From: an uncultured Lactobacillaceae bacterium | GTDB taxonomy: Bacteria; Bacillota; Bacilli; Lactobacillales; Lactobacillaceae | DNA length: 64,000 bases | Direction: 5' to 3' | Assembly (NCBI GenBank): GCA_945285405.1 | Contig: CALYQJ010000009.1 | Span: 16,759-80,758, forward strand | Shown here: one piece after another, positions 28,035 to 59,562 of the stretch | Layout of the letters: the number at the start of each line of letters is the position of its first letter | How positions within the stretch are numbered: the first letter of the stretch is position 1 | Translations under genes and position numbers: made by a program | The notes under the pieces: generated by a model | Databases searched by the model: none | Seen by the model: the letters and a program-made list of their open reading frames with translations, nothing else | Told to the model about the DNA's origin: nothing

Positions 28035-31000
28035 ATGAAACATATAAAGCGACTATTTGCGCTTTTTTTAATTGGAATAATGGTTAATCCCTTCCAACTT
28101 GCTATTAACTTAAAACCGGTAGCAGCTGCAAGTAAAAGCCAAGATATTCCTGGAATTACAACAACCAATATTATTGACCAGTGTTCTATTGATGGTCCTG
28201 AAAGTCAATCTGGTCATGATTTTGATCAATTGATGGATGGTGATGATCAAACACTCTGGATAGCTAATGGTGGTAATTGGCCAGCTAAGTTGCATGTTAA
28301 AGTACCAACTAGCAATAATCAACCAATTAAGCAATTAGTTATTAAACTTGAACAGAATCAACCTGATCGGAGCGTTGATGTAAAAGTTCAACATGCTTTA
28401 AATGGGGTAACATCAGATTTAATTGATGATGCGACTTTGAAAGATCAAAAATTTGGAAAAGATATTAACGTAGATTTCAAAGATGGTATTAATGCTTCAG
28501 ATTTCTATATAACTTTAAGTAACCCTAAAAATGGGGATAAAACTGGTGAATTTTGGCCTGCAATTGCCGAGTTAAAGTTATATGTTGATCGCGAAAATAA
28601 AGATGAAATTACTGATGTAGCACCTAATGCTGATATTAAGGGATATGGTGATGCTCAAAAGATAACTGATAATGATCAGAGTACCTTATATATGTTAGCT
28701 AACGGTGGAATTAGTACTTTACCAAATAAACAAGCTAGTGTGGAATTTGATTTAGATCAACCAACTAATGTTATTGGTTTTCAAACTCAATTTGAACATT
28801 TAAACAGTGATTCCAATAATTTTGAATTTACATATCAAATTAGCGGTAAAGATGCTTCTACACAACAATGGAGCACTATTTGTAAGGATGTTAAAGCTAA
28901 AAGAACTTCCCCTGATGATATTGTTACGAGTCCTTTAGCTGATTCAGTAAAATTAAGTGCTGTTCGTATAACGATTACTGATATAAAATCAACTGGTGGT
29001 GATCCTTGGCCCGCTATAGCTGAATTTAAAATTTTTGGCGAAAGTTCAGATAGTTCAGCTAACAAAGAAGATAAAGAAAGCATTGCTTGGAATAAAACCA
29101 TTCACACGAATAGTAATCAAGATCAAGTAAAACGAATAAACGATGGCTCTTTAACTAATAGTTGGCGAAGCAAAAATTATCCTAGTTACGTTGATATTGA
29201 TTTAGGTAGTAATTACGATTTAAGTGAAGTTCAAATTTATGCACCAAGTTTTGGTTATCAAAACTATACAATTTATACTAGCACTGATGGAAATAACTTT
29301 ACCCGATACGCGCAAAAGAGTAATCAAGAAGCAACTCCTGCGACCGGTGATCGATATAAAAAATCTGCTACTGCTCGTTTTGTGAGAGTGTATGTTTACT
29401 ATAATTCGAAAAAAGATGGTGCGGTATTAAATGAAGTTAGAGTTTTAGGTAAGGAAGCCAATACAACTTCAAAACTTGCTCCAATTCCAACAGTGACTGA
29501 TTATAAAAATACTGATTATAATCAACAAACAACGGCACAAGATGCAATTGATGCAGTTAAAGGAATTATTGATCGCCGTTTAGGAAAGAAATACGAAGAT
29601 TGGTTTACTTTTGCCATTGCTAATCAGGCAAATAAATACGATTACTTTGATATTAGTAGTGACAACGGAAAAGTTAAAATTACTGGTAATTCAGGAGTTA
29701 GCTTAGCTAGTGGTTTAAATTATTATTTAAAACATGAAGTAAAAGTTAATCTTAGTGAAGTTGCTGATCAAGCAAAAATGCCAGAAAAAATTGTTTTGCC
29801 GACTCAAACAATTCATCAGGAAACCCGTTTCCCAGTTAGATATGCCTTTAATTACACGACTATGTCTTATTCAATGCCATACTGGGGTAAAAAGGAATGG
29901 CAAAAAGAAATTGATTGGTTAGCTTTAAATGGTATTAATTTAGTTCTTGATGTTACTGGTCAAGAAGCAGTTTGGTATGAATTTTTACATTCTGCAGGGT
30001 TTACAGATCCTCAAATTAAAGATTTTGTTTCGGCACCAAGTTATGCTGCTTGGCAATATATGAGTAACCTATCAGGTTTTGGTGGACCTTTAAATAATGA
30101 GTTTTTTACTAATCGAGTACAGTTAGCACGGGAAAACCATTACCAAATGCGTAAATTGGGAATGGAAGTTTGTTTACAAGGATACGCCGGAATGATTCCT
30201 GATGGAATTACCGCAATAGATTCGAAAGTTCAATTATTGCCACAAGGAACTTGGAGTGGATTTCAACGACCAGCAATGATTAAAACTGATACTCCTGAAT
30301 TTGATAAATATGCGCAACTATATTATCAAGCTCAAGCTAAAGTTTATGGTACTTATGATCACCATTATGCGATAGATCCTTTCCATGAAGGTGGTAATCC
30401 TGGTAATTTGAGTCCTACAGTAATTTCCCAACAGGTATTAAAAAATATGATGCAGTTTGACTCAAAAGCTGTTTGGGTAATTCAATCTTGGCAAGGTAAT
30501 CCAACGACTGCTTTGTTAAAAGGATTAGGAGATAATCGTGATAAACATGCTTTAGTTTTAGATTTAAATTCTGAGACAAATCCTCACTGGAACGAAACAG
30601 ACCCAGCAAAATATGGTGGATCAGCAGAAGGTGGAGAATTTATGAAGACACCCTGGGCGTTTTCAATTATTGAAAACTTCGGAGGTCGTGATGGGATGTC
30701 TGGTCATATAGATTCCATTCTGTCTGGATTGAATGATGCAATGGGACGTGCTAAACATATGGCTGGAATTGGTATGACTCCTGAAGCTAATCAAACTAAT
30801 CCAGTAATTTTTGATTTATTATTCGAGTCAATTTGGAGTAAAGATGGCAACCATGTTGATCAGATTGATATAAATAAATGGATTAAAGACTATGCTGAAA
30901 GACGATATGGTGCCAAAAGTGATTCTGCTGATGCTGCTTGGAAGATCTTATTAAATACGGCTTATGCTGCTAAAAACAATAAAATTGGCCAAGGAGCTCC

Positions 31001-32870
31001 GGAATCAGTAATTAATGCTCGTCCAGCAACTGATATTTCGGCTGCTTCAACTTGGGGTAATGCAGTAATTCAATATGATAAGCCGGAATTTGAACAAGCA
31101 GCACGGTTGTTATTAAAAGATTATTCTAAATTAAAAAATAGTCCGGGTTATCAAGATGATTTAGCAACAGTTTTGACTCAAGTTTTATCTAATTATGCTC
31201 AAGAAGTTCAAAAACAAATGACCGCAGCATTAAAGAATAAGGATGCTGCAGGTTTTAAGAGTGCCTCTGAACAATTCTTAAAGACAATTGATCAAGTTGA
31301 TCAAGTAACTGGAACTCAAGCTGAAAGCATTTTAGGTAATTGGACACAACCTGCTGAGCGTGCTGCTGCAGGATTAGATGACTTTAGTAAAGATACAGCT
31401 CTTTATAATGCTAAGGCATTAATTACTACTTGGGGTAGTATTAATCAAGCTAATGCAGGTGGTTTAAAAGATTATTCTAATCGTCAATGGTCTGGTTTGA
31501 CTAAAGATTTTTATAAAATGCGTTGGCAAAAGTGGATAAATGCCAAAACTCAAGAGTTGCAGACAGGTCAACCACAAGATATTAGTGATGCAGATTGGTT
31601 TGGAATTGAATGGGATTGGGTTCATAACGGTAAAAACTATCCTGAAGAAGTTAACAATGCTGATTTGCAAAAATTAGGATTAACTGTATTGGGTAATTAT
31701 ATCGTTGCTAACAAATTAGATTTAACTGCTTTGAATGATGCAATTACAGAAGCTAATGCTAAAGTAGCTGCTGGTTTTGAACAAGCAAAAACAACCCAAG
31801 AAAAATGGGATGCTTTAACTAAGACTCTTAAAAAAGCTCAAGATTTTGTTAAAGCCAACCAAACTAATAGTTCAGTTCAAAAACAAAGTGAAGCCGATCA
31901 ATTAACTCAAGATTTGATGGAATCGCTCACGGATTTAGATAATTCAAATTCAGGAAAACCTGTGACACCAGGAAAACCTGTGACACCAGTGACAACAGAT
32001 AAAACTCAATTAAAAGCGGTTTTAAATCAGGCTAAGCAAGAATTAGAATCATCATGGCAATATCAAGAAGATTCTTATCAAGATTGTCAAACAGCGATTA
32101 AAGCAGCTCAAAAAGTTCTTCAAAACGATGAAGCAACTCAAAATCAAATTGATCAAGCAACTAAGGACTTAAAGTCATCTTTACAAAAATTAGTAAAGAT
32201 TTGGACGGTTAAAAATGTAGATCAAGTTTGCTACATTTCTTATGTTCCTGGTTATAGTGTTAAAGTGTATGATTTGCCAAAAGGAAAATTTGTTAATCAA
32301 ATGTTAAAACATGGTACTTCTTGGCATGTTAGTCAAATTGCTGAAAATACATCAGGTCAAAAGTATTACCGTTTAGGAAAGAATCAGTGGATTGAAGGAC
32401 AATATGCTTCTGATTCTCCAGTAAGTGATTTTAGAATTAGTAGTTTTAAAGCGGTAGGATATATTAACTATATTCCAAACTACAAAATAAAAGTTTGGAA
32501 TGAACCAATGGGTAAATTTACCGGTAAATATTTAGCACATGATAGTGCATGGAAAATCTTTAAAAAAGCAGTTAATTCTAAAGGACAGGTATTCTACAAC
32601 GTAGGTGGTAATCAGTGGATAGATGGACAATATGTAGTTTTTGATCATAATCAAGTTTATCAAAATCTATCTGGTATAGTTACCATTAAGTATGTTAAAG
32701 GGTATGGCGTTAACTTATGGAAAGATTCAAATACAAATTCCGGTTATTATTTAGGTCGAAAACTAAACGATGGTACTAAGTGGAAAGTATTTGGGAAACA
32801 AAACGGTTTTTATAAATTAGGAAACAACCAATGGGTTCAAAGTATATATACTTCTTATAATGCTAAATAA
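28035..32870 (+). CDS. Secreted GH89 alpha-N-acetylglucosaminidase with F5/8-type-C-like domains, FIVAR-like segment and C-terminal cell-surface repeats
   Basis: 1611 aa; signal peptide; NAGLU-like barrel (TRFPVRYAFNYTTMSYSMPYWGKKEWQKEIDWLALNGIN); candidate catalytic Glu in DPFHEGG and GIGMTPEANQTNP both present; no LPXTG. Confidence 0.88.
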   Translation: MKHIKRLFALFLIGIMVNPFQLAINLKPVAAASKSQDIPGITTTNIIDQCSIDGPESQSGHDFDQLMDGDDQTLWIANGGNWPAKLHVKVPTSNNQPIKQLVIKLEQNQPDRSVDVKVQHALNGVTSDLIDDATLKDQKFGKDINVDFKDGINASDFYITLSNPKNGDKTGEFWPAIAELKLYVDRENKDEITDVAPNADIKGYGDAQKITDNDQSTLYMLANGGISTLPNKQASVEFDLDQPTNVIGFQTQFEHLNSDSNNFEFTYQISGKDASTQQWSTICKDVKAKRTSPDDIVTSPLADSVKLSAVRITITDIKSTGGDPWPAIAEFKIFGESSDSSANKEDKESIAWNKTIHTNSNQDQVKRINDGSLTNSWRSKNYPSYVDIDLGSNYDLSEVQIYAPSFGYQNYTIYTSTDGNNFTRYAQKSNQEATPATGDRYKKSATARFVRVYVYYNSKKDGAVLNEVRVLGKEANTTSKLAPIPTVTDYKNTDYNQQTTAQDAIDAVKGIIDRRLGKKYEDWFTFAIANQANKYDYFDISSDNGKVKITGNSGVSLASGLNYYLKHEVKVNLSEVADQAKMPEKIVLPTQTIHQETRFPVRYAFNYTTMSYSMPYWGKKEWQKEIDWLALNGINLVLDVTGQEAVWYEFLHSAGFTDPQIKDFVSAPSYAAWQYMSNLSGFGGPLNNEFFTNRVQLARENHYQMRKLGMEVCLQGYAGMIPDGITAIDSKVQLLPQGTWSGFQRPAMIKTDTPEFDKYAQLYYQAQAKVYGTYDHHYAIDPFHEGGNPGNLSPTVISQQVLKNMMQFDSKAVWVIQSWQGNPTTALLKGLGDNRDKHALVLDLNSETNPHWNETDPAKYGGSAEGGEFMKTPWAFSIIENFGGRDGMSGHIDSILSGLNDAMGRAKHMAGIGMTPEANQTNPVIFDLLFESIWSKDGNHVDQIDINKWIKDYAERRYGAKSDSADAAWKILLNTAYAAKNNKIGQGAPESVINARPATDISAASTWGNAVIQYDKPEFEQAARLLLKDYSKLKNSPGYQDDLATVLTQVLSNYAQEVQKQMTAALKNKDAAGFKSASEQFLKTIDQVDQVTGTQAESILGNWTQPAERAAAGLDDFSKDTALYNAKALITTWGSINQANAGGLKDYSNRQWSGLTKDFYKMRWQKWINAKTQELQTGQPQDISDADWFGIEWDWVHNGKNYPEEVNNADLQKLGLTVLGNYIVANKLDLTALNDAITEANAKVAAGFEQAKTTQEKWDALTKTLKKAQDFVKANQTNSSVQKQSEADQLTQDLMESLTDLDNSNSGKPVTPGKPVTPVTTDKTQLKAVLNQAKQELESSWQYQEDSYQDCQTAIKAAQKVLQNDEATQNQIDQATKDLKSSLQKLVKIWTVKNVDQVCYISYVPGYSVKVYDLPKGKFVNQMLKHGTSWHVSQIAENTSGQKYYRLGKNQWIEGQYASDSPVSDFRISSFKAVGYINYIPNYKIKVWNEPMGKFTGKYLAHDSAWKIFKKAVNSKGQVFYNVGGNQWIDGQYVVFDHNQVYQNLSGIVTIKYVKGYGVNLWKDSNTNSGYYLGRKLNDGTKWKVFGKQNGFYKLGNNQWVQSIYTSYNAK
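31953..31988 (+). repeat. 18-bp tandem repeat x2 encoding GKPVTP linker
   Basis: GGAAAACCTGTGACACCA repeated twice. Confidence 0.9.
32226..32856 (+). repeat. Three C-terminal protein repeats (SLAP/SH3-like, about 60 aa each)
   Basis: VCYISYVPGYSVKVY...LGKNQWIEGQY; VGYINYIPNYKIKVW...VGGNQWIDGQY; IVTIKYVKGYGVNLW...LGNNQWVQSIY. Confidence 0.8.
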
Positions 32871-51362: not shown

Positions 51363-52118
51363 ATGAAATTTGAAGAACGGGTCTTAAATGAAAGTTATAA
51401 GTTAACTGAGATGGAAACTGAAATTGTTGATTATATTCAAAAAAATCTCCAAGAAATTGATCATTTTAAAATTCAACAGTTAGCTAAACAATTTTATACT
51501 GTACCTAATACAATTACCCGCTTAAGTCATAAATTGGGTTATAGTGGCTTTTCCGAATTAAAACACGTTATTAAATATGAACAAGAAGAAAAGATTGATC
51601 TGAAAAACAAACCACAGCAAACTTTATTCCGTAATTTGGATTTGATTGATAATCAGCGAGAAGCAATAGTTGCAGAAATGATGTGTAAAGCTAAACAAAT
51701 TCAATTTGTAGCTCGCGGATCGTCAGCTAATGTTATTCAAATTAGTGTTAATAATTTTTATAAAGTGGATCATAAGTCTTATTTTTCAACAAACATTAAT
51801 GAACTTAAAGAAAATCTGACAGAAAGTAAATCTGACTTATATTTTCTTGTTAGTGATACTGAAAATGATTCAAAAATTATTTCTCTAGCGAAATTGATAA
51901 AACAAAAAAAATTGCCAATTGTCTCTTTAACTCATGTTCAAAAAAATCCATTAGCAAATTTAGCTGATCAGCGCTTATTTTGTTTTACTCAAGTTCAAGA
52001 AATAGTCGATGATGATAAATCACAAATAATTGTAGATCAAACACCATTAATGATTATCATGAATAGCCTTTTTCAAACTTATACTCAAAAATTGGGTAAA
52101 GTTTTGCAGCAAGTATAA
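51363..52118 (+). CDS. RpiR-family (HTH + SIS) transcriptional regulator
   Basis: LAKQFYTVPNTITRLSHKLGYSGFSELKHVI; SIS-like ARGSSANVIQISVNNFYKV. Confidence 0.9.
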   Translation: MKFEERVLNESYKLTEMETEIVDYIQKNLQEIDHFKIQQLAKQFYTVPNTITRLSHKLGYSGFSELKHVIKYEQEEKIDLKNKPQQTLFRNLDLIDNQREAIVAEMMCKAKQIQFVARGSSANVIQISVNNFYKVDHKSYFSTNINELKENLTESKSDLYFLVSDTENDSKIISLAKLIKQKKLPIVSLTHVQKNPLANLADQRLFCFTQVQEIVDDDKSQIIVDQTPLMIIMNSLFQTYTQKLGKVLQQV

Positions 52119-52199: not shown

Positions 52200-54764
52200 T
52201 TGATAACTGTAAATATTATTCCTCATTTAAGGTGGAATCGCGAAAGTGATTTTTCCGCTGCAAAATCGAAAATATATTTAGCTCATGATTTACGTGAAAT
52301 ATTAGAATTTTTGGAAAAACATCCAGAGTTTCCTAATTATTTACTTGATGGTCAAATGGCCATTGTGGAAGATTATTTGCAACTTTATCCGGAAGATCGA
52401 AATCGTTTGAAAAAATTAGTTCAAGCCGGTCGTTTAAGTATTGGTCCTTGGTATACTCAAACAGATCAAATGATGGTAAGTGGTGAATCATTGGTTCGAA
52501 ACCTTTACTATGGGATTCAAGCAGCAAAAAAAATTGGTCAACCAATGATGATTGGATACGCTCCAAATGCTTTTGGACACTCAGCTCAGCTACCGCAAAT
52601 TTTAAATAATTTTGGTATTAAGAAAGCTATTATTTGGCGAGGAATTTCTAATCGTAATGGCGGTAACAAAGCTGAATTTGTTTGGCAAAGTTCGGGTCAT
52701 TCTCAAGTGACAGTTCAATTATTACCCTTAGGGTATCAAATTGGTAAAAAGTTACCCACTAACCCTCAAGATCTAAAAAAACGAATGGATCAATATTTTA
52801 AAACTTTAGATGAAAAAGCTACAGGTAAAAATGAAATAATTCCTAATGGAGCTAATCAAATGCCAATTCAAAAAAATATTTCTGAAGTTTTAGAACAGTT
52901 GAAAAAGCTTTATCCTAATCGGAAATTTTGCTTAAATTGTTATGAGAAAACTTTTGCTGAACTTGAATCTAAAAATTTATCGCAAGTTCAAGGAGAGTTT
53001 ATTGATGGTCAAAATAATCGTGTTCATCGTACCATTTATTCAACTCGAGCTGATTTAAAAGCTGCTAACACTAGAATCGAAAATAAAATTACTAATCAAT
53101 TAGAACCATTATTGGCTTTAGCTTTTTGTTCAAATTTTACTTATCCTAAACAAACAATGGCTGATATTTGGAAAAAATTGTTAACTAATCATGCTCAGGA
53201 TAGTATGGCCGCTTGCTGTTCTGATCAAGTAAATCAACAAATCAAAACCCGTTATCAAGAAGTAGAAGAAAGTGTTGATCAATTGATTAATTTTTATCAA
53301 CGTAAAATAAGTCAGGGAATAAAAGTAGATCAACAACAGGAAACGCTAGTACTATATAATTCATTGCCACAGTCGCGTGATGCTGTAATTAATTGTTCAT
53401 TACGTTCAAATTTTAAACAATTTAAATTAATAGATTCATCTGGTCAGAGTATCCCTTACCAAATTTTGCATCAAAAGGCGATCCAAATATCTAATCAATC
53501 TTCAAAAGAAATGTATGATTATCAAATTCAATTTGAGCACCATTTAAAAGGTTTGAGTTATGAAGCATTAACCATTGAAGCCGGTAAAAGTAAAAAAGTT
53601 AAAACCGATTTTCCAAGAGTTTCTGTAATTGAAAATAAATATTATCAGATTTTACCAAATGATGATGGTACAGTAGATCTTTTGGTCAAATCAACAGGAC
53701 AAGTTTATGAAAATATTTTGTCTTTAGTTAATGAAGGCGATTGTGGTGATGAATATGATTTTTCACCTTTGGCAGATAATATTCCTCTGCTGTCATCAAT
53801 GCAAGTTCGTTCTTATCATTGGTTTAAAATCACTGATACAAGTGAAGAATTGAGTTTAAATTACCATTGGAAATTACCTAAAAATCTTCAAAGTCGTCAA
53901 AAAAAGCTTTTTGATGGTGGGATGGTTGTAACTTTGAATCTTATTTTGAAGAAGAACGATCCAGTGATTGGCTTGAAATTAAAAATTGCAAGTAATTTAA
54001 GCGACCAGCGAACAAGGCTATTAGTTCCTACTAAAATTAAAAGTAAATTTTCAATTGCAGATAATCAATTCGGTGTAATAAAACGTTCAGTAAACGATAC
54101 GGCATTATTAGATTGGTCGAAAAATAATTGGGAAGAACGTCCTGATCCAATTTATCCATTTTTAACTCATGTTGCTTTGGCTAATGATAGTGAAACAGTC
54201 GGTGTTATTACTAACAGTGTCAAAGAATATCAAGTTGTTGGAGAACAAAATGATACGTTGGCGATTACGCTTTGGCGTAGTGTTGGAAAACTAGGTAAAA
54301 AAGACTTAAGAAGAAGACCTGGACGAGCATCAGGTTATTCGCTTCAAACTCCTGATTCGCAAATGCATGGGTTAATTCAATTTGATTTGGGGTTAGTTTA
54401 TCTTCCTGGTGATTATCAAACTACTAATTTACCAATTATAGCTAAGAGTTACTTAACTCCAGTGATGACTTTTAATGAAGCTGAGGATTCACGGATAAAA
54501 TTGAATCCAGTAAATAAGACATTACCTTTAAGTAAAAGTTTAGGTCAAATTAAATTATCTGGGGTAGTTGTGAGTACCGTTAAAGTTGCTGAAGATCTAT
54601 CAGGAATTGTTGTGCGTTTATTTAATACCAATTCAGAAGTTGTAAAAGTAAAACTTAGTCCTAAAATACAGCTTTTAGATTTAAATGAGAATCCTAAAAA
54701 GTATAGTAAAGATATAATATTAGAACAAAATGAATTTATTACGATAAAATTATCGAAAAAATAA
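52200..54764 (+). CDS. GH38 alpha-mannosidase-family protein with substituted active site (probable pseudoenzyme)
   Basis: 854 aa with GH38 architecture (LPQILNNFGIKKAIIWRGIS; RVHRTIYSTRADLKAANTRIENKITNQLEP); active-site motifs altered; TTG start. Confidence 0.82.
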   Translation: MITVNIIPHLRWNRESDFSAAKSKIYLAHDLREILEFLEKHPEFPNYLLDGQMAIVEDYLQLYPEDRNRLKKLVQAGRLSIGPWYTQTDQMMVSGESLVRNLYYGIQAAKKIGQPMMIGYAPNAFGHSAQLPQILNNFGIKKAIIWRGISNRNGGNKAEFVWQSSGHSQVTVQLLPLGYQIGKKLPTNPQDLKKRMDQYFKTLDEKATGKNEIIPNGANQMPIQKNISEVLEQLKKLYPNRKFCLNCYEKTFAELESKNLSQVQGEFIDGQNNRVHRTIYSTRADLKAANTRIENKITNQLEPLLALAFCSNFTYPKQTMADIWKKLLTNHAQDSMAACCSDQVNQQIKTRYQEVEESVDQLINFYQRKISQGIKVDQQQETLVLYNSLPQSRDAVINCSLRSNFKQFKLIDSSGQSIPYQILHQKAIQISNQSSKEMYDYQIQFEHHLKGLSYEALTIEAGKSKKVKTDFPRVSVIENKYYQILPNDDGTVDLLVKSTGQVYENILSLVNEGDCGDEYDFSPLADNIPLLSSMQVRSYHWFKITDTSEELSLNYHWKLPKNLQSRQKKLFDGGMVVTLNLILKKNDPVIGLKLKIASNLSDQRTRLLVPTKIKSKFSIADNQFGVIKRSVNDTALLDWSKNNWEERPDPIYPFLTHVALANDSETVGVITNSVKEYQVVGEQNDTLAITLWRSVGKLGKKDLRRRPGRASGYSLQTPDSQMHGLIQFDLGLVYLPGDYQTTNLPIIAKSYLTPVMTFNEAEDSRIKLNPVNKTLPLSKSLGQIKLSGVVVSTVKVAEDLSGIVVRLFNTNSEVVKVKLSPKIQLLDLNENPKKYSKDIILEQNEFITIKLSKK

Positions 54765-54796
54765 AAAAAAAGCTTGCTAAATGCAAGCTTTTTTTA
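54764..54796 (+). terminator. Intrinsic terminator after GH38-family gene
   Basis: AAAGCTTGC-taaat-GCAAGCTTT-TTTT. Confidence 0.85.
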
Positions 54797-54925: not shown

Positions 54926-56677
54926 TTGAATGATAGATCAAAATTAATTAATAAAATTTCTAATTTTAGTTTGAACAAATTTAAAAAGCTACTCAAGGTT
55001 TCTCATCCCCGGTATTTTCATTTATTTGCTGGTATTGTATTAGGAATGATTTCTTCAGGAATTCAATTATTAATTCCTATTTTAGCGCAGTACTTGATTA
55101 ATAGTTTTAAAGAAAGAATAGATTACTGGTTAATTGTTAAAATAGTTGTAATGTTGGTTTTTACAGCAATTTTATCAGCCGGAGCGGGAACAATTTTAGG
55201 AGTTTTTGGCGAAAATGTGGTTGCAAATTTACGTAAAGAACTTTGGCACAAAATTATTGATTTACCCGTGAAGTATTTTGATCAAGTTAAATCAGGTGAT
55301 TTAGCATCTCGTCTTGCTAATGATACAACATTAATTAAAAACTTAATTGCTAACACTTTCCCAAGTGCGTTTTCTTCAATAATTTTAATTATTGGTTCGA
55401 TTATAATGATGTTAATCATGGATTGGAAAATGTCCATAATTATTTTTTTCTGTTTGCCTTTAATTTTCTTAGTTTTGGTTCCTTTAGTACACTTTGGACA
55501 AAATATTGGTCGCAAACGTCAAAATAAATTAGCAGATTTTAATGCTGCAATCAGCGAATCAATGGGAGAAATTCGTTTAGTCAAATCTTCTAATGCAGAA
55601 AATTATGAGCGCCATAAAGGTAATAAGTTAATTAATGAATTAAGGTTAATTGGGCGATATGAAGCAATTTATGATTCAATATTTCCCCCGTTTTTAACTA
55701 CCATTTTAATGTTTTTAATTTTGGGAATTATGGTTTATGGAGTACATCGGGTATCTGTAGGGACAATGACTTTTGGGATGTTGACTTCGTTTGTTCTCTA
55801 TCTTTCTAATTTTATGGCATCAATACCAGTCGTTACTAATTTATTTACTCAAACTGCTAAAGTTTCCGGTTCAACTGATCGAATTAGTGATATTTTACTT
55901 GAAAAGACTGAAGATTTAACTAATGGTATTAAGCAGGATATTTCAGGTCAAACCCTTCGAGCAAAGAATATTTCATTTTCTTACCTTACTAATAAACCAA
56001 TTTTAAAAAATATTTCTTTTAAAGCTAGTCCTAATACTATGGTAGCGTTTGTTGGACCTTCGGGAGGAGGGAAGTCTACAATTTTTTCATTGTTAGAGCG
56101 TTTTTATGAAGTTAATAGTGGCGAAATTGTGATAGGTGATCATAATATTAAAGATTTTAGTTTATTGGATTGGCGACGACAAATTGGTTATGTAGGGCAA
56201 GATTCCCCTCTATTTGCCGATACGATTCGAAATAATTTGGTTTATGGTTTAACTAAAAAATTTGAAGATCAAGAACTCTGGGATAAATTAAAACTAGCAT
56301 TTGCAGAAAAATTTGTGAGTGAGATGCCTGAACAATTAAATACTTTTGTTGGTGAAAGAGGAATAACTATCTCCGGGGGGCAAAGACAACGGTTAGCAAT
56401 TGCGCGTGCATTTTTGCGTGATCCTAAATTATTATTGTTTGATGAAGCAACTGCTAGTTTGGATTCTCAATCTGAAATGAAAATTCAAAATGCCTTAAAA
56501 AATTTAATGCAAGGTCGTACTACTTTAATTATTGCGCATCGTTTAGCTACAATTGTTGATGCAAATATGATTTATTTTGTTGAACATGGTCAAATTACAG
56601 GAGCCGGGACCCATCAAGAATTATTGAGATCTCATGCTTTATATGCTAAGTATGTTCAAGAACAGTTCAAAGCTTAA
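54926..56677 (+). CDS. LmrA/MsbA-like ABC transporter (TM + ATPase half-transporter)
   Basis: GPSGGGKSTIFSLLERFY; TISGGQRQRLAIARAFL; TTG start. Confidence 0.93.
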   Translation: MNDRSKLINKISNFSLNKFKKLLKVSHPRYFHLFAGIVLGMISSGIQLLIPILAQYLINSFKERIDYWLIVKIVVMLVFTAILSAGAGTILGVFGENVVANLRKELWHKIIDLPVKYFDQVKSGDLASRLANDTTLIKNLIANTFPSAFSSIILIIGSIIMMLIMDWKMSIIIFFCLPLIFLVLVPLVHFGQNIGRKRQNKLADFNAAISESMGEIRLVKSSNAENYERHKGNKLINELRLIGRYEAIYDSIFPPFLTTILMFLILGIMVYGVHRVSVGTMTFGMLTSFVLYLSNFMASIPVVTNLFTQTAKVSGSTDRISDILLEKTEDLTNGIKQDISGQTLRAKNISFSYLTNKPILKNISFKASPNTMVAFVGPSGGGKSTIFSLLERFYEVNSGEIVIGDHNIKDFSLLDWRRQIGYVGQDSPLFADTIRNNLVYGLTKKFEDQELWDKLKLAFAEKFVSEMPEQLNTFVGERGITISGGQRQRLAIARAFLRDPKLLLFDEATASLDSQSEMKIQNALKNLMQGRTTLIIAHRLATIVDANMIYFVEHGQITGAGTHQELLRSHALYAKYVQEQFKA

Positions 56678-56796: not shown

Positions 56797-57684
56797 GTGA
56801 AAAAAGTAATTGAAGTTCAAAATTTATATTTTAATTATGGTACAAAAAAAGTTTTAAAGGGATTAAATTTTATCGTTAATCCCGGAGAGATTATTGGATT
56901 ATTAGGCAGTAATGGTGCCGGTAAGACTACGTTGTTGAGTATTTTGCTTGGACTTTTGCCGGCAAATAAAACTACTTGGGTTTTAGAAAAGTCTCCTGGA
57001 TCTAAAAGGGCTAAAGAAAAAATCGGTTCAATGCTCCAAGGTGATTTGATACTCGGTAAAGTTAAAGTTTCAGAAATGTTAAAAGAAACGGCTATTCGTT
57101 ATCCTAATCCCCAGTCGTTGACTAAGATTTTAAATCAAATTAATTTAGTATCAGAGTCAAATAAATATCTTAGTGAACTTTCGGGGGGACAATTACGTCG
57201 AGTAATGTTAGGCATGGCCTTAATTGGTAACCCTGATTTATTATTTTTAGATGAGCCAACTTTAGAAATGGATGTGAAATCGCGGCAAGACTTTTGGAAA
57301 TTAATTCAGCAAATGAAATTATCAGGGAAAACGATCTTATTAAGTAGCCATTATTTAAATGAAATTGAAAACGTAGTTGATCGAATTTTTATTTTACAAA
57401 ATGGTAATTTTATTTTTCAAGGGACTTTTCCTGAGTTGCAATCACTTAATCATGAAACACAACTTAGTTTTAAAACTAAGTTGAGTCCCCAATTTTTTAA
57501 AAATTTACCAGGAGTAAAAAATGTTGAATTGGACCATGATTTAATTAAATTAATCAGTCAAGATGGTGATCAAACTCTTAATGCCTTAAAAAATAATTTG
57601 AGTCAACTTAAACAGATTACTATTGAACGTCAATCACTTGACAATATTTTTATAGAACTTACTAAAAAGGAATCAGTGAAATGA
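56797..57684 (+). CDS. ABC transporter ATP-binding protein
   Basis: LLGSNGAGKTTLLSILLGLL; LSGGQLRRVMLGMALIGNPDLLFLDEPT; GTG start. Confidence 0.94.
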   Translation: MKKVIEVQNLYFNYGTKKVLKGLNFIVNPGEIIGLLGSNGAGKTTLLSILLGLLPANKTTWVLEKSPGSKRAKEKIGSMLQGDLILGKVKVSEMLKETAIRYPNPQSLTKILNQINLVSESNKYLSELSGGQLRRVMLGMALIGNPDLLFLDEPTLEMDVKSRQDFWKLIQQMKLSGKTILLSSHYLNEIENVVDRIFILQNGNFIFQGTFPELQSLNHETQLSFKTKLSPQFFKNLPGVKNVELDHDLIKLISQDGDQTLNALKNNLSQLKQITIERQSLDNIFIELTKKESVK

Positions 57685-58448
57685 AAATCTTTTTGCAACA
57701 ATTAAAATTTGATAGTAAACGAATTGTTTTTCGCAATCAATCTTATATTTTTTTTACGATTTTGTTACCGTTATTTTTTTATGTTTTATATACTAAAATT
57801 TTCAATACGGGACCAACAACTCAAGTTTTAACCTATGCTAAAACTTTTTTGGGAAGTATGGCAGTTTATAGCTTTTTAATTAATGCTATATTTGGTTTAG
57901 CACAACTTTTAAAAAGCGATAAGGATCACAAATATCTAATATGGCTTTATCTCATGCCCAAGGGGTATCTATCTTATTACTTTTCAATTAGTTTAATCAT
58001 GGTAATTATAAATATTTTATCATTAGGAATTTTGGGGTTATGTGCATTTCTAATTAATGGTATTAGTTTCACTATTCAACAATGGCTTTTTTTAATAGGT
58101 GGATTGATGTTAGCTCAAATACCTTCTCTACTTTTAGGGTATGCAGTTTCATTTATTAAAAAACGCGAAACTTTAAGTATTGTGAGTAATTTAATTACTT
58201 TTCCTTTAGCAATTGTGAGTGGTTTATGGTGGCCACTAAGCGTATTACCTAATTGGGCTCAATCAATAGGTAAAATAATGCCAACTTATTTTGCTAATCA
58301 ATGGTTTAATCAAATTATGTTTAATCAACCATTTGTATGGAAAAATTTTTATGGAATTATGTTTTGGATTTTAATTAATATTGTTTTAATTCAAATAGTA
58401 AGATTTTTTGTAAAGAAGCAGGGAATTTTTTTACAAAATGATGAATAA
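57681..58448 (+). CDS. ABC-2 type transporter permease
   Basis: 6 TM-like segments; translationally coupled to ATPase gene. Confidence 0.85.
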   Translation: MKIFLQQLKFDSKRIVFRNQSYIFFTILLPLFFYVLYTKIFNTGPTTQVLTYAKTFLGSMAVYSFLINAIFGLAQLLKSDKDHKYLIWLYLMPKGYLSYYFSISLIMVIINILSLGILGLCAFLINGISFTIQQWLFLIGGLMLAQIPSLLLGYAVSFIKKRETLSIVSNLITFPLAIVSGLWWPLSVLPNWAQSIGKIMPTYFANQWFNQIMFNQPFVWKNFYGIMFWILINIVLIQIVRFFVKKQGIFLQNDE

Positions 58449-59562
58449 AATTCTAAAACTTGATTTTAATTTTTGGCATATTTTTTCTTACATCTGGTTA
58501 ATTTATTTGTTCTATCCAATCCAGAATTATTTACCGGTAAAAAGTAATCATGATTTACTGGGGTTAATTATCCTTGCTTTATTTGTGGTTAGTTATATTT
58601 TAGTTGATAAAAGTAATCGATACTTGAAGTATATGATATTTTTAGAATTAACACTTATTGAATTATTTGTCTTTTTTTCTAATGGATATGGTCTTCAGTT
58701 ATTAATTTATCCAGGTTGGCAAATAAGCTCAATCTTAGGAAATTATTCTCAAAAATATTTTCAGAAATTTTGTAAACTTTATTATTCACTATTAATTATT
58801 GATTTATTAATTTTATTTTTCGTAAAATCGTTAATTTTTAAACAATCTTTTACATTAATAATTATTATTTTTTTTATTTTAATTGCGCCACCCTTAGCTT
58901 ATTCTTTAATTTACAATATAGCTAAAAATCGGCATTTAAATCAAACTAATCGGCGTCTTGAAGCAGTGATTCAACGTGGAGAACGTGATCGAATTGCCCG
59001 TGATTTACACGATACTTTAGGTCAAAGTTTCTCCATGATTACTATTAAAGCAGAGCTAGCAGAAAAACTGTTAGAAAAAAGACCACAACAAGTGGTAGAA
59101 GAACTACGTGATATTGCCCATACTAGTCGTCAAAATTTGCAGTTAGTTCGGGACATTGTTAATGATTTATATCAAAAATCTTTAAGTGAAGTTTTGATCG
59201 AACAGAATAAGAATTTAATAAAAGTTAATTTAGTCTTGGAAACTAAGGGTGAAAGTGAGGCTTTAAAGTGGCCAACAAAAATTCAAAGTGAATTTGCTAG
59301 TGTAATCCCTGAAGCCATTACTAATATTATTCGACATGCTCATGCCAAAAAAGTATTTATGAATTTTATAGAAGAAACCACATTCTATCAGATTACTATT
59401 CATGATGATGGTCATGCTAAGAAATTTGAGCGTGAAGGTTCAAAGGGAATTTATGGGATGACTCAACGTTTAAAAGAAGCTGGTGGTAGGTTAATAATAA
59501 ATCATCAATTTAATGGAACAGATGTAAAGTTTATCCTTTTTAAGGACAATAAAAATGATTAA
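58438..59562 (+). CDS. Sensor histidine kinase (HisKA_3/DesK-LiaS type)
   Basis: RDRIARDLHDTLGQSFSMITIKAELAEKLL; HATPase region. Confidence 0.92.
   Translation: MMNKILKLDFNFWHIFSYIWLIYLFYPIQNYLPVKSNHDLLGLIILALFVVSYILVDKSNRYLKYMIFLELTLIELFVFFSNGYGLQLLIYPGWQISSILGNYSQKYFQKFCKLYYSLLIIDLLILFFVKSLIFKQSFTLIIIIFFILIAPPLAYSLIYNIAKNRHLNQTNRRLEAVIQRGERDRIARDLHDTLGQSFSMITIKAELAEKLLEKRPQQVVEELRDIAHTSRQNLQLVRDIVNDLYQKSLSEVLIEQNKNLIKVNLVLETKGESEALKWPTKIQSEFASVIPEAITNIIRHAHAKKVFMNFIEETTFYQITIHDDGHAKKFEREGSKGIYGMTQRLKEAGGRLIINHQFNGTDVKFILFKDNKND

Follow-up and report, generated by a model that had tools for sequence, protein, structure and literature searches.

What remains of an enzyme when the residues that carried its chemistry are gone, and why would a bacterium keep the gene? 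This question is raised by a full-length GH38 gene of an uncultured Lactobacillaceae bacterium. The window, by which we mean the whole stretch of 64,000 nucleotides that was analysed, carries this gene together with a terminator:

52200..54764, + strand: predicted MngB-derived GH38 pseudoenzyme, 854 aa, TTG start (ORF, domains, alignment, tree)
54765..54795, no strand: terminator-like stem-loop with a 13-bp stem, T-rich on both strands (structure scan)

Identity and Fold of the GH38 Protein

A preliminary description of this DNA had reported an intact 854-codon ORF followed by a clean terminator. Both were found again: the ORF contains no internal stop, all motifs quoted at the time (PHLRWNRES, GYAPNAFGHSAQLPQI, NGANQMPIQKN, and NHAQDSMAACCSDQVNQQI) are present, and the stem-loop at 54765..54795 is the terminator. 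The promoter scan did no better than chance, with 20 promoters found vs. 21.1 expected. Each of the four Pfam GH38 domains scores above its gathering score, with the N, middle, and C parts in order over the full length. A frameshift, a wrong frame or a wrong start was ruled out, since the protein can be aligned with GH38 over its whole length and its start coincides with that of its relatives. Also ruled out was a second intact GH38 gene that would mask the loss, as the window genome (G000) gave a single GH38 match, and so was a mobile origin of the gene, because plasmid and phage searches yielded relatives at no more than about 42% identity.

Compared with the mannosylglycerate hydrolase model (PRK09819/NF007331), the window protein scores 938.7 bits over its full length, while the equivalog cut-off is 1138. 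However, three intact relatives reach 1021, 1074, and 1142 bits, and since two of them fall below the cut-off as well, the low score is by itself uninformative.

Structure prediction had been proposed as a check, and it indicates that the fold was kept. The AlphaFold2 model, built with 14 relatives, has a mean pLDDT of 81.7 and matches SpGH38 of Streptococcus pyogenes (TM 0.87) and the GH38 protein of E. faecalis over the whole length (TM 0.87–0.88). An intact control (L012), modelled with the same sequences, reached a mean pLDDT of 85.1. Loops 11–20 and 331–340 obtained 58 and 57 in the window protein vs. 78 and 69 in the control, which is suggestive only. As proof of a disordered pocket it is weak, because the overall confidence of the models differs too and loop 121–130 is alike in both (64 vs. 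66).

Thus, judged from its sequence, the window protein is a GH38 member by fold and descent and not an alpha-mannosidase by its residues. Annotation pipelines would label the gene alpha-mannosidase or mannosylglycerate hydrolase, which calls for caution among annotators.

Loss of the Active Site

In SpGH38, zinc is bound by H13, D15, D125, and H351; D125 doubles as the nucleophile, and the acid/base is D232. The sugar is positioned by W18 and F127, and R149, Y192, D352, and Y574 complete the -1 site (PMC2815779). Residues were mapped by aligning the window protein to SpGH38, and six of these positions turned out to be replaced (all + strand, from the alignment):

52230..52232: codon 11, AGG, Arg for a zinc ligand His (SpGH38 H13)
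52236..52238: codon 13, AAT, Asn for a zinc ligand Asp (SpGH38 D15)
52245..52247: codon 16, AGT, Ser for the sugar-stacking Trp (SpGH38 W18)
52566..52568: codon 123, AAT, Asn for the Asp that is nucleophile and zinc ligand (SpGH38 D125)
52854..52856: codon 219, AAT, Asn for the acid/base Asp (SpGH38 D232)
53196..53198: codon 333, CAG, Gln for a zinc ligand His (SpGH38 H351)

The other half of the site, F127, R149, Y192, D352, and Y574 of SpGH38, is kept as F125, R147, Y179, D334, and Y519. The preliminary description had assigned R, N, N, and Q to the four zinc ligands, and these are indeed R11, N13, N123, and Q333. All sites it named were found replaced, while it had overlooked the acid/base (D219N) and the Trp (W16S). 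It had also suggested to align the protein with SpGH38 and E. coli MngB, and no replacement set of His and Asp is apparent in this alignment. The protein thus has neither the His-Asp-Asp-His zinc site nor the Asp nucleophile and Asp acid/base of a GH38 alpha-mannosidase, from which we infer that it would be free of zinc and without activity.

The losses are not a trait of a wider group. Among 73 homologues from the family, the order, the class, and other phyla, E. coli MngB included, the ancestral residue is kept at all six sites in 73 of 73. This set had been extracted with a motif filter; checking the unfiltered listing of earlier loci and the counts in and out revealed that the filter had dropped no full-length homologue locus for a lost motif. 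Substitutions common to a larger clade, which the preliminary description had envisaged as the outcome of a phylogeny, were consequently ruled out: none of the 73 homologues shares any of them, and only the dead copy of genome G003 (see below) does.

Nor are the losses spread over the protein. The homologues have 59 strictly invariant columns, and the window protein retains 52 of them, so that the earlier view of an otherwise conserved scaffold holds. The seven lost are H11R, D13N, W16S, D123N, D219N, H333Q, and N598S, six of which lie inside the 10-column active-site set (hypergeometric P = 3e-5). When 55 homologues were left out one at a time, the worst of them departed from three invariants and the majority from none. 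Taken together, both results indicate that loss is concentrated on the catalytic centre while the scaffold was kept. Since the codons of Arg11 (AGG) and Ser16 (AGT) are more than one change away from His and Trp codons, the active site has probably been free to vary for some time.

Descent from a Mannosylglycerate Operon

The tree places the window protein in the MngB clade together with E. coli MngB (support 100/100), inside the Lactobacillales part. Its sister there (82/84) comes from a different family of the order and has a branch about half as long (0.55 vs. 1.2 for the window protein). The closest intact relatives share 44–47% identity with it. They lie in operons, which in L063, L097, L098, and also L064 consist of RpiR, PTS IIABC, GH38, and glycerate kinase genes in this order; in L096 and L099 the GH38 gene has no adjoining glycerate kinase. 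In L063, the PTS protein scores above the equivalog cut-off of MngA, the 2-O-mannosyl-D-glycerate transporter (891 vs. 763 bits), and the kinase passes the glycerate kinase model. In the window, RpiR and GH38 genes stand 81 bp apart at the point where the relatives carry the PTS gene. No MngA-grade PTS was found in G000, a genome of 85.7% completeness, where the best match reached 298 bits vs. 1377 for the true partner. Likewise, glycerate kinase had no match in G000 at this completeness and none in its three congeneric relatives. From the sequence comparison, the window gene is thus derived from an MngB-type mannosylglycerate operon that has lost the PTS and, where present, the glycerate kinase gene. 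In other lineages the regulator can go first: at L097:13432-13917 the RpiR ORF is cut to 161 aa beside an otherwise intact MngA-MngB-glycerate kinase operon.

A Dead Orthologue and a Constrained Copy

The nearest relative, G003, belongs to the same genus, and its upstream flank shares about 96% identity with that of the window gene. Its GH38 ORF contains 15 in-frame stops and 11 internal deletions of 1 to 487 bp, not one of them divisible by three in length. Because the flanking ORFs of G003 are intact, RpiR included, these lesions are unlikely to be assembly noise. The copy reads PHLR*NRES, GYAPNAFEHS, and HVQDNMAACC, and thus has the substitutions of the window protein at all sites that are still readable; consequently, the catalytic site was lost before the two lineages split. 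An intact copy of the substituted gene was found in one genome only. Given the dead orthologue of G003, whatever role the window protein acquired is dispensable, and it may be transient. In the syntenic stretch of G003, parts of the ABC exporter gene and the adjoining histidine kinase gene (window 57391-58810) are absent as well, which again points to gene loss in progress between the two genomes.

Since that split the window copy has acquired neither a stop nor a frameshift. When amino-acid differences were polarised by seven outgroups, the window protein was in the outgroup state 46 times and G003 11 times (P = 3e-6), and private losses of invariant residues number 12 in G003 vs. none in the window. 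A neutral expectation, built from the observed window-to-G003 mutation spectrum, predicts about 16 nonsense changes on the window branch and about 140 missense ones, while no nonsense change is seen (P = 8e-8). The same expectation fits the dead copy of G003, with 15 stops observed vs. 11.4 expected under full neutrality. The pairwise dN/dS of 0.29 between the two copies combines a branch under constraint with a free one. Synonymous divergence to G003 is 0.13 for RpiR, 0.23 for GH38, and 0.37 for the ABC exporter gene (window 54926-56677), the latter standing out against about 0.13–0.16 for ClpB, RpiR, and CorA. This uneven divergence perhaps stems from recombination or replacement, and the comparison between the two branches is independent of it.

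Purifying selection on the window copy since the split from its nearest relative is thus supported by these comparisons. However, constraint could have ended recently: if 20% of the window branch were neutral, the probability of seeing no stop would be 0.04, so that up to about this share could have passed without an expected stop. The statement in the preliminary description that the gene is not a decaying pseudogene therefore stands for the window lineage, with its absence of stops and its 46:11 ratio, and fails for the G003 orthologue with its 15 stops. Relatives with frameshifts and neutral dN/dS had been named as the finding that would speak against it, and G003 comes close to that picture while the window copy does not. 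The latter combines lost catalytic residues with a constrained ORF and scaffold, the features of a pseudoenzyme under selection.

The Adjoining RpiR Regulator

Upstream of the GH38 ORF, and ending 81 bp before it, lies the gene of a regulator:

51363..52118, + strand: RpiR-family regulator, SIS phosphate-loop SLSGE replaced by SDTEN, codons 164–168 (domains, alignment)

It is 33% identical to the RpiR protein of L063. Compared with seven full-length relatives, 23 of 23 near-invariant positions are kept in the HTH, whereas the SIS domain retains no more than 17 out of 29, and a stretch around codon 121 is altered as well. Some of the relatives also deviate at several otherwise invariant columns. 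In SpNanR, Ser135, Ser179, the backbone of Leu180, Ser181, and Thr184 hold the effector phosphate. The loop serves as the effector site and is highly conserved among RpiR regulators (PMC12713135). The window RpiR departs from the SxSGxT type of loop, reading SDTEN where its relatives read SLSGE. With acidic residues introduced, this loop probably does not bind phosphate, although Ser164 and Thr166 still carry hydroxyls. The preliminary description had placed the GH38 gene under RpiR control. An RpiR gene is indeed present upstream, but with the conserved effector loop lost, control in the usual sugar-phosphate-responsive sense is doubtful. The search for inverted repeats yielded AT-rich palindromes only and no convincing operator.

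A second RpiR paralogue (L094:5595-9441 and L095:8622-9362), 40% identical and with an intact effector loop, stands in the window genome beside a PTS operon that includes a gene of the tyrosine phosphatase family. G003 has kept this RpiR, and the PTS genes are gone there. In this genus, RpiR genes appear to persist longer than the genes next to them.

What the Protein May Be Kept For

We regard it as likely that the window GH38 protein is a pseudo-MngB which purifying selection maintains for a non-hydrolytic role in the cytoplasm. Its ancestor would have been an MngB-type hydrolase that cleaved PTS-imported mannosylglycerate-6-phosphate in the cell. The PTS transporter and any glycerate kinase would have left the operon first, an order of events that we infer, and zinc binding, nucleophile, acid/base, and stacking Trp would have followed, while the fold and half of the sugar-contacting pocket were retained. 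In the window lineage selection would still hold this cytoplasmic protein, while the sister discarded its gene. The likeliest role may be that of a binding protein, and we offer this tentatively: an amide- and Arg-lined pocket or surface might accept a sugar, an anionic ligand, or a partner, possibly the adjoining RpiR. Naming a specific ligand or partner would be conjecture.

An alternative is that an enzyme rendered useless by the loss of its PTS drifts in both lineages and the window copy has simply not been hit yet. Transporter and kinase are gone, the sister copy is a pseudogene, the branch of the window protein is about double the length of its sister's in the tree (1.2 vs. 0.55), and the genus is shedding genes. 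Yet over equal time the window copy suffered no stop or frameshift compared to 26 disabling changes in G003, the polarised changes stand at 46:11, the lack of nonsense changes would have a probability of 8e-8 if the branch were neutral throughout, and the ancestral losses cluster in the active site instead of being scattered. This leaves only a very recent end of constraint, and we consider decay quite unlikely. A zinc-free chemistry, by which the protein would hydrolyse or transfer with, e.g., D334, R147, and Y179, is highly improbable. These residues, F125, and Y519 are kept in a gene under constraint, but both the nucleophile and the acid/base Asp became Asn, all metal ligands are gone, and the alignment offers no apparent His/Asp substitutes. 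H128 in the FGHS motif is a His in eukaryotic GH38 proteins too, where it is presumably not a ligand.

A more specific form of the preferred reading, a selected pseudo-MngB, would have the protein act in a complex with RpiR and replace the lost sugar-phosphate effector, similar to a trigger-enzyme co-regulator. The two genes remained neighbours when the intervening PTS gene disappeared, and both proteins lost conserved residues that handle small molecules while keeping the HTH (23/23) and the GH38 scaffold, respectively. It is in the RpiR phosphate loop that SpNanR and other structures of the family have their conserved effector site (PMC12713135). However, RpiR is intact in G003, which lacks the GH38 protein, some RpiR relatives likewise differ at several otherwise invariant columns, and no convincing operator emerged, so that such a candidate complex appears unlikely. 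Going further, one could suppose that natural evolution made a mannosylglycerate-6-phosphate hydrolase into a zinc-free protein which, once transporter and kinase of the operon were lost, came to act as the signal for, or as a partner subunit of, an RpiR that co-evolved with it and is blind to effectors; this strikes us as improbable. As RpiR persists in G003 without the GH38 protein, the two need not work together.

Relation to Known Systems

With E. coli MngB, the window protein shares full-length homology at 39% identity, the clade (100/100), and, through its relatives, the MngA-type PTS operon; it differs by a score under the equivalog cut-off, lost catalytic and zinc residues, and missing PTS and kinase partners. 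The five-domain fold of SpGH38 (2wyh/2wyi) is shared (TM 0.87) and F127, R149, Y192, D352, and Y574 are conserved, whereas H13, D15, D125, H351, D232, and W18 are all replaced and the window protein belongs to a separate subclade. The dGMII mutants D204A and D341N (3bvu, 3cv5, 3bup) likewise lost the nucleophile or the acid/base, and according to the entry titles were deposited with mannose or oligosaccharides bound; a GH38 pocket can thus bind without cutting. In contrast to the window protein, these are single laboratory mutations with the other metal ligands still in place. Glycosidase folds kept for binding or regulation after catalysis was lost are known from chitinase-like YKL-40, klotho, and 4F2hc, but these are animal proteins of other GH families. 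No description of a bacterial GH38 pseudoenzyme was found in the open-access literature searched, whose coverage is incomplete.

Pseudoenzymes as such are well known, and the window protein is not a new system. They are mostly recognised long after their origin, while here intact MngB relatives, their type of operon, a selected inactive copy, and a sister with a dropped copy can be compared side by side. This makes the locus a good test case for an enzyme that outlives its own chemistry in a shrinking genome.

Elsewhere in the window, at 28035-32870 (+ strand), a 1611-aa protein is encoded which comprises the N, barrel, and C domains of a GH89 alpha-N-acetylglucosaminidase (NAGLU) as well as F5/8, FIVAR, and SlpA surface domains. 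These domains point to a probable surface enzyme with host or mucin glycans as its substrates.
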